Source: Caldilineaceae bacterium SB0661_bin_34 (GTDB lineage: Bacteria; Chloroflexota; Anaerolineae; Caldilineales; Caldilineaceae). From it: a stretch of DNA of 64,000 bases. Position 1 is the stretch's first letter; each line of letters starts with the position of its first letter. The stretch is taken from positions 1 through 64,000 of the forward strand of contig VXMJ01000063.1 in the NCBI GenBank assembly GCA_009841145.1, in the 5' to 3' direction. Position numbers and translations under genes: made by a program. Shown here piece by piece: positions 41,803 to 43,524 of this stretch. A model generated the notes under the pieces. That model searched no databases, was not told the DNA's origin, and saw only the letters and a program-made list of their open reading frames with translations.

Positions 41803-41843
41803 TTCACCTGTTGTTCACCTCAAATTCACATTCATGCTACAAT
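41803..41843 (+). promoter_or_regulatory. Three TTCAC direct repeats with exact 11-bp period plus extended -10 (TGCTACAAT)
   Basis: TTCACCTGTTG|TTCACCTCAAA|TTCACATTCAT starting at 41803, 41814, 41825; TACAAT at 41838-41843. Confidence 0.75.
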
Positions 41844-41961
41844 GATTATTGGATGCCCATCCGACCCGCCCCCACAGGGCAATCACAGGTTTCCACACTG
41901 GGGAGGAGGATTGTGGTGGTGCCCGCGTCGGCGTGAATCAGTACAACTGAGGAGACACATT

Positions 41962-43314
41962 GTGATCAAGGGAACTCGCTACTTGCTCAGGAGTGCCTCG
42001 CTGGCGCTCCTAGCCCTGACGTTGATGGTAGCCATGGCGTTGCCGTCCTCGGCGGCCGATGATAAGTGCAGCCCCAGCCAGATGTTGGATGAAGTTGAGA
42101 TCGTCAGTGTTGCGGCCAAGGAAGCTCCGGCTGTCTGGAGCGCCCAGGACTTGGTGAACTTCGACTATGACGGCGACATCGAGAACGGGCTCTTGGAAGT
42201 CAGCTTCAAGGACATTCCCACCGACTTCGACTTCGATGGCTACATCATTGAGGCTGTACCCGGCGACGATGACCCCGGCGACTCCAAAGCGTTGGGGGTG
42301 GCCGCCTACACAACTTCTTCGCTGATCGCACGACCCTCCGTTGTCGGTTCCACGGTTACGGAGATTCTGAACCTCGAGCCCGGCACGAAGTACTACGTGA
42401 CGGTCTATGCCATCAACCACAATACGGTGCAAATCAGCCCGAACCAGCGTGCACAAGACAGCAGTTCGGCCACGACGCTGCTGAGTGCTCCGTTCCTAGG
42501 GGCACTCGAGGTGGGGAGAGGGGCTGTTCATACTGAAGATACTGCTTCCACTTGGACCCTTGACGTTCCATTGACTGATTGTGCAACTCCAGCGGCCAAC
42601 TCTGCCTGCCAAACCGTCGATTGGTGGGATGTTGACTTGGAAGACAAGGATTATCAGGGCGCGCACTTTGCGTTCTACGATGCAGAGGACGAAGCGGGAC
42701 AGCACTACTTCCGCTGGCTGAACCCCGGCGACTACGGTCCCTTTGACCATGTCCTAGCCAAGAAGGATAACAAGCAGGCCGACATGTTATCCCTTGACAA
42801 GGACGGCGACGTGGAAAACCACTGCGATGCTGATGATATCGGCGGCGACTGCGGTCATACCCACTACCAGTTCAAGGCCGTGGACGACAACGGCAACACC
42901 GTGGCCAGCGAACTGGTGGAGACCGACGGCAAGTTCACGATGAATTCTGGTACCGGTAGGGGTTACTTCCAGACGGTGTTTACCGCCGAGAATGGCGATC
43001 TGACCCTGTCCGTCTCACTGGGACGCATGGTCGGCGGCAAGTACAAGGCCATGAGCGACACCGCGTCCGTGATGTTCGAGGCTCCGGGTGATCTGAGGGC
43101 TCTTGACCAGACATATAACGAGTACGCGCGGGTCAACGCGGATATCGCCAAGGACGTGAACGAGGTAGATGACATCGAAAGGTATCTCGATTCGGTCTTT
43201 GCTGAACTCACAAGCATCGATGAGCAGGCCGAGCGTTTCAAGAACGACAAGCAGGTAGATGGTGCACCAGCCAACAACAAGATGGTGGCCTATCTCAACA
43301 ACCAGTTGAAGTAA
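41962..43314 (+). CDS. Secreted acidic protein with FnIII-like segment
   Basis: GTG start in frame; signal peptide IKGTRYLLRSASLALLALTLMVAMALPSSAA; FnIII-like VTEILNLEPGTKYYVTVYAINHNT. Confidence 0.72.
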   Translation: MIKGTRYLLRSASLALLALTLMVAMALPSSAADDKCSPSQMLDEVEIVSVAAKEAPAVWSAQDLVNFDYDGDIENGLLEVSFKDIPTDFDFDGYIIEAVPGDDDPGDSKALGVAAYTTSSLIARPSVVGSTVTEILNLEPGTKYYVTVYAINHNTVQISPNQRAQDSSSATTLLSAPFLGALEVGRGAVHTEDTASTWTLDVPLTDCATPAANSACQTVDWWDVDLEDKDYQGAHFAFYDAEDEAGQHYFRWLNPGDYGPFDHVLAKKDNKQADMLSLDKDGDVENHCDADDIGGDCGHTHYQFKAVDDNGNTVASELVETDGKFTMNSGTGRGYFQTVFTAENGDLTLSVSLGRMVGGKYKAMSDTASVMFEAPGDLRALDQTYNEYARVNADIAKDVNEVDDIERYLDSVFAELTSIDEQAERFKNDKQVDGAPANNKMVAYLNNQLK

Positions 43315-43344
43315 ACCCCAAAAACTGACTAGGAGACCAACATA

Positions 43345-43449
43345 ATGCGCACTTGGACAAAGCCCGTATTGGTGAAGCTGGACATCGCTGAGACCCTCAG
43401 GGGTCAAGGCCCCTGTCCCGATGGCGACGGTGGCTCGGAAGCCATGTAG
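43345..43449 (+). CDS. 34-aa RiPP/lasso-precursor-like peptide (not in supplied ORF track)
   Basis: MRTWTKPVLVKLDIAETLRGQGPCPDGDGGSEAM*; RBS AGGAGA at 43331; terminator 43 bp after the stop. Confidence 0.6.
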   Translation: MRTWTKPVLVKLDIAETLRGQGPCPDGDGGSEAM

Positions 43450-43492
43450 CCATTCCAAACTTCGAGCCGAATGCCTCCCATGGCTCGGTTGG

Positions 43493-43524
43493 ACAGCCTC
43501 GGCGAAAGCCGGGGCTGTTTCTTT
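43493..43524 (+). terminator. Rho-independent terminator of the 41962-43449 unit
   Basis: ACAGCCTCGGC-GAAA-GCCGGGGCTGT followed by TTCTTT. Confidence 0.88.

Follow-up and report, generated by a model that had tools for sequence, protein, structure and literature searches.

A short open reading frame downstream of a secreted-protein gene (S) in the window, that is, the whole stretch of 64,000 nucleotides analyzed here, quite probably encodes the 34-amino-acid precursor of a lasso-type RiPP that is matured in trans. The predicted chemistry and the enzymes are of a known kind; the new part appears to be the dispersal of the core pathway over the chromosome. The positions of the features in the window and of related exported proteins are collected in Table 1.

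Table 1. Features of the S-peptide unit and exported proteins at lasso loci of relatives.
Feature	Position	Strand	Basis
34-aa lasso-type precursor gene (putative), type A, MRTWTKPVLVKLDIAETLRGQGPCPDGDGGSEAM	43345..43449	+	ATG..TAG; copies, omega, profile recovery
Predicted leader MRTWTKPVLVKLDIAETL (W-15, P-12, L-10, T-2)	43345..43398	+	Alignment with C/K-adjacent precursors of relatives; RRE motif; predicted cleavage point
Predicted core RGQGPCPDGDGGSEAM with putative ring acceptor Asp8 (codon 43420-43422)	43399..43446	+	Columns of relatives' precursors; predicted cleavage and ring
Ribosome-binding site of the peptide, AGGAG	43331..43335	+	Sequence; GGAGA block kept in 8/8 copies, upstream spacer diverged
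Intrinsic terminator hairpin ending the S-peptide unit	43491..43520	+	13-pair stem, MFE -24.3 kcal/mol, z = -4.1
S, 450-aa exported protein, N-terminal signal peptide, weak fn3	41962..43314	+	GTG start behind AGGAG 41950-41954; homologues share start region
Promoter-like site TTCACC-18-TACAAT, extended TG, upstream of S	41814..41843	+	Consensus scan 9/12; 1 found versus 0.8 expected, weak
Peptidase_C25 proteins	L025:1294-4509 (G028:C97), L156:2789-6871 (G018:C92), L157:1036-4374 (G021:C22)		PF01364 E 1e-73 or better where scanned; PorU/gingipain-like

The original prediction had placed a 34-amino-acid peptide with its own ribosome-binding site between the S stop codon and a terminator, and this arrangement was confirmed: the frame begins 30 nt past the stop codon, and an imperfect T-run follows the hairpin. 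A terminator scan of the region is by itself not significant (2 found versus 1.6 expected). A similar hairpin lies 3' of all eight intact copies of the peptide gene, each of which also has a ribosome-binding site and a stop codon. These copies are distributed over four congeneric genomes, namely the window's own genome (G000, three copies) and the three congeners searched (G001, G002 and G003 with two, two and one, respectively). Besides the window copy, the own genome contains copies at G000:C35:1142-1243 (97% identical) and G000:C33:74152-74253 (91%). Additional weak matches in G001:C1 and G002:C72 had low scores or stops and were dismissed as noise.

Two forms of the peptide can be distinguished. 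Type A begins with MRTW and is found in the window and at G000:C35, G001:C87 and G002:C77, each time downstream of S, while type B begins with MQKW, has no S upstream and occupies a locus whose synteny is shared by the four genomes. Between the two types, 13 to 16 synonymous changes stand against only three to five nonsynonymous ones, with a dS of ~0.9-1.6 (synonymous sites near saturation) and an omega of ~0.03-0.05. Since synonymous changes far outnumber nonsynonymous ones, the peptide appears to be translated and kept, and the comparison points to strong purifying selection between the paralogue types. The eight copies together with the omega values rule out a chance open reading frame. A PHROGs search with the peptide and with S returned no match for either.

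Lasso leaders contain an RRE motif of the form [Y/W]xxPx[L/V/I/A/F/Y] (PMC13381572), which is matched by WTKPVL in eight of eight copies. With the cleavage point predicted such that Thr stands at position -2, the Trp of the window peptide falls at -15, as does the leader Trp of the paeninodin-like PbaA (W-15; PMC13381572). The Asp suspected earlier at core position 7 or 8 then becomes core residue 8, and a Thr penultimate in the leader is combined with an acidic residue 7-9 positions into the core. Precursors encoded beside a lasso cyclase or kinase in other genera show W-x-x-P-x-[L/V], mostly with a Thr near the leader end, and the acceptor column of the cyclase-adjacent ones is occupied by Asp or Glu, mostly followed by Gly. 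Among these precursors, G018, G021 and G028 have the leaders most similar to that of the window peptide (W-x-x-P-[V/I]-L-x-K-T-P-I-A-E-T-A, versus W-T-K-P-V-L-V-K-L-D-I-A-E-T-L in the window). A profile was built from seven precursors adjoining the cyclase or kinase gene in other genera, with the peptides of the window's genus left out. When applied to 3,746 small ORFs, it ranked three variants from the window's genus third to fifth (E 0.013-0.053), behind two precursors from G028 lasso clusters containing the kinase, and in a phylum-wide sample of 301 genomes it matched three, namely the own genome, G050 and G322. Spacing and profile recovery thus bear out the paeninodin-type leader proposed initially. 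The NCBIfam paeninodin family NF033524 reached 15.3 bits (cut-off 27; E 0.012) over residues 3-22 only.

The predicted core reads RG(Q/S)GPCPDGDGGSEAM and, assuming a cut after T-x, begins with Arg. A search for a conserved leader with a variable core had been suggested as a check; the core is almost invariant among the copies and not diversified. Its tail, GDGGSEAM, contains no aromatic or other bulky plug residue, and the single Cys of the peptide leaves no internal disulfide. For both reasons threading is doubtful, and a branched, unthreaded ring is possible instead of a lasso. All copies end in GSEAM and lack the C-terminal Ser that is the site for known lasso kinases, unlike the precursors of the sister cyclases, which have it; those of G018, G021 and G028 do end in Ser. 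More speculatively, the conserved Cys6 might allow a disulfide with a partner.

No maturation genes were found in the 64-kb window, in agreement with the earlier observation that had raised the possibility of maturation in trans. A genome-wide search for lasso enzymes recovered one B1, one B2, one kinase (K) and one cyclase (C) gene in G000, and B1, B2, K and a lasso-clade C lie at unlinked loci in four of four genus members, which supports that possibility. The single PF13471 gene of G000, on contig C6, is a lasso B2 (NF033537, 5.9e-28, above the cut-off). On the same contig, B1 is a PqqD-type protein (PF05402, 1.7e-17) whose closest relatives of solved structure are a PqqD chaperone of a lasso system (9x90 chain B, the best match, 7.5e-11), TbiB1 and TfuB1. 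K is an HprK-like kinase (Hpr_kinase_C, E 1.7e-8) with His104, a GPSGAGKS loop at residues 119-126 and DD142-143, fitting the His-Lys-Asp-Asp motif of HprK-like lasso tailoring kinases (PMC9266682). The genes are arranged on one strand in the order HlyD, FtsX, two ABC ATPase genes, K, B1 and B2. Within the limits of the contigs, order and spacing are the same in the four genomes; the K-B1-B2 operon contains no C.

The only Asn_synthase-type gene in G000 encodes C (G000:C94, 627 aa). In NCBIfam, C scores best against the lasso cyclase model NF033535 (9.8e-46; 156.5 bits versus a cut-off of 525), SGGLDS is present and Cys2 is absent. In a tree of 35 homologues, C falls inside the clade of cyclases adjoining A/K/B1/B2 (98/98 and 100/98), and Cys2-type asparagine synthetases form a separate group (100/100). 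Tree position and the missing Cys2 rule out an ordinary asparagine synthetase. A long stem branch (1.61 changes per column) leads to the C of the genus, so that a shift in the specificity of this enzyme is conceivable. Among G000-G003, C is 93-95% identical with an omega of 0.11-0.18; B1, B2 and K are intact in the same genomes, and most enzyme comparisons give an omega well under 1. The congeners recovered with C as query are the Caldilineaceae/Caldilineales MAGs JAPPAJ01, JAAXGZ01 and MPMO01; isolate names such as IRC1 hint at a possible sponge origin.

The pathway genes of G000 are spread over four contigs, with the window precursor on C62, the type-B precursor on C33, C on C94 and K-B1-B2 on C6. 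The distance of each to the nearer end of its contig is 16 kb or more, which puts a minimum of ~53 kb between any pair; the C35 precursor copy, which is near a contig end, is not counted in this bound. In G001-G003, one C and one B2 each were found on contigs other than those of the precursors, and the dispersed set of one C, one B2, one to three precursors and an intact K-B1-B2 is present in all four genus members. A single gene cluster of precursor, B and C, which is the usual though not a chemical mark of lasso pathways, was not found in G000-G003. The assemblies are fragmented MAGs; a contig break masking a normal cluster was ruled out, given how far inside separate contigs the genes are and that four MAGs show the same pattern. 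No other precursor candidates were found near C or K-B1-B2, where the conserved small ORFs all sit inside larger genes and a hidden local precursor was rejected, and a profile scan of the rest of the genome gave no other well-scoring precursor-like ORF. The gene neighbourhoods of the type-B, C and K-B1-B2 loci are constant across the genus; transposase-like ORFs occur near G000:C35.

Among relatives, the precursor adjoins C and/or K in G006, G008, G013, G018, G021 (where the cluster spans a contig end), G023, G028, G032, G050 and G322. In some of them (G018, G023) B2 already lies apart from C, and the loosening of the cluster may for this reason predate the window's genus. A lasso-type B2 apart from B1, K and C was seen at G009:C52:152525-152908 (L096), G018:C24, G021:C12 and G023:C87; G009 has no cyclase match at all. 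At G050:C235 (L114:1450 and 1843), C and K are accompanied by two precursor genes in tandem, whose leaders are nearly identical but whose tails differ, which is a more usual, diversifying lasso locus.

The secreted protein S matches PF00041 (fn3) with an E of 1.3e-4, under the family cut-off, and its AlphaFold model, built from four sequences, has a mean pLDDT of 34.5, too low to be of use. Its start appears better placed at GTG 41962, with AGGAG upstream, than at ATG 41842, which overlaps the sole promoter-like -10 hexamer of the region. The close homologues of S at G000:C35, G001:C87 and G002:C77 are 69-75% identical, compared with 97% for the peptide, and all four members of this set, including the window, have the peptide downstream. 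Together with the omega values above, this provides both the small ORF beside S homologues and the codon-level conservation on which the original prediction hinged. When the window is compared with the remaining type-A loci, similarity is confined to the S-peptide block (~41983-43520) and the flanks are unrelated, so that the pair has been moved or copied as a unit. S is confined to the window's genus (61 genomes searched), and no close homologue was found in G003. Since type-B copies stand alone in four of four genomes, S is not required for the peptide, and its candidacy as an essential partner is weakened by these copies and by G003. The S-peptide pairing singled out before was therefore recovered at every close S homologue, but is not obligatory. 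A distant S paralogue (~29% identical) occurs once per genome, at L034:6882-7682 (G000:C6), G001:C201, G002:C87 and G003:C52, with no precursor downstream of the one in G000.

A K-B1-B2 operon without C and a core without plug residues would also be compatible with a linear modified peptide, from which B1 and B2 strip the leader and in which K phosphorylates a Ser without ring formation, as in the LPPs of Bacillota, whose systems pair an RRE with an HprK-like kinase and have no cyclase (PMC13381572); C would then act on another substrate or be declining. We consider this improbable, since C is intact, is the sole gene of its type in G000 and is under purifying selection in all four genomes, since no other precursor for it was found, since homologous precursors adjoin C in other genera, and since Asp8 is conserved. 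It is also unlikely that the peptide is a non-RiPP small protein, such as a signal, a chaperone or a partner of S, with an accidental likeness to a leader, and that an overlooked precursor is the true substrate of the lasso enzymes. The fixed sequence and invariant core fit a functional small protein, and type-A copies are always found downstream of S. However, the peptide is picked up by the profile built from cyclase-adjacent precursors and agrees with these in leader spacing and acceptor column, no alternative precursor was found, and type-B copies exist without S. Transposase-like ORFs near G000:C35 and S-peptide cassettes in unrelated flanks could finally suggest the relic of a once clustered lasso pathway that was scattered by mobile elements and is no longer one working unit. 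This appears very improbable, as all parts are intact in four species, omega is far below 1 for the peptide and most enzyme comparisons, and the type-B, C and K-B1-B2 neighbourhoods are held across the genus.

If the peptide is a lasso-type precursor matured in trans, it would be made from up to three unlinked loci, type A probably by cotranscription with the gene for the exported S. The PqqD-like B1 from the K-B1-B2 operon would bind the WxxPxL leader, and B2, a protease with a Cys-His transglutaminase fold, would cleave after Thr-Leu. The unlinked asparagine-synthetase-like C would join the new N-terminus (R1) to Asp8, giving an eight-residue macrolactam that carries the conserved Cys6. K may phosphorylate a Ser, and export may fall to the proteins encoded by the neighbouring HlyD/FtsX/ABC genes. 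Only tentatively can the proposal be extended to an unclustered lasso-type pathway with one nearly fixed product and several dispersed precursor genes. Two of those in the own genome would each travel in a cassette with the gene for an exported fn3 protein, and the macrolactam with its Cys might act jointly with that protein at the cell surface and not as a diversified antibiotic.

The system shares with the paeninodin type (PadeA/PbaA with B1, B2, C and kinase; Bacillota) the WxxPxL leader with W-15 and T-2, a discrete PqqD-like B1, a separate B2, an HprK-like kinase and an Asp acceptor in ring range. It differs in its unclustered genes, its occurrence outside Bacillota, a core starting with Arg if cut after T-x, the missing C-terminal Ser and a score under the NF033524 cut-off. 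Clustered lasso loci of other Caldilineaceae and Chloroflexota (such as G013:C24, G028:C97, G050:C235 and G322:C153) have homologous precursors, C, K, B1 and B2, with cyclases of the same clade; in these loci C and/or K adjoin the precursor, whereas the window's genus has separate loci, duplicated precursors and an almost invariant core. In the prochlorosins, ProcM acts on precursors encoded elsewhere, one promiscuous enzyme of lanthipeptide chemistry serving many diverse cores. The window's genus likewise has one enzyme set for precursors at several loci, but the enzymes are of the lasso type and the core is nearly fixed. The citrulassin deiminase is a RiPP tailoring enzyme encoded outside its cluster (PMC8498205), and lanthipeptide proteases can be unclustered (PMC8960859); in these cases only the tailoring enzyme or the final protease is unlinked, whereas cyclase, leader-processing module and precursors are all separated here. 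LPP systems, with YxxP leaders, an SpI peptidase and no cyclase (PMC13381572), resemble the present one in their discrete RRE, HprK-like kinase and aromatic-xxP leader, but the window's genus has B2, C and a WxxP leader.

Within its incomplete coverage, our literature search revealed neither a lasso core pathway in which precursor, cyclase and B module are all unlinked nor a lasso study on Caldilineaceae. Nearly all known lasso cases keep the processing enzymes with the precursor, unlike the window's genus, which would represent a pathway split over the chromosome. Lasso genome mining, which searches next to the cyclase or protease, would miss all eight precursors. If the enzymes act in trans, unclustered lasso systems are being overlooked, a fixed product under strong selection makes the role of lasso peptides for their producers testable, and the genus offers a natural case of RRE-guided recognition without gene linkage.

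In clustered lasso loci of other Caldilineaceae, an exported Peptidase_C25 protein of 1071-1360 aa adjoins K near the precursor. Since these neighbours belong to another family than S, the association of a precursor with an exported protein appears recurrent, yet not with one protein family. Two further proteins of lasso loci, L025:4822-7215 and L156:9663-10706, contain an N-terminal PqqD (RRE-like) domain, an apparent Tat signal and an exported region, which suggests that an additional RRE-like domain has been joined to a secreted protein.
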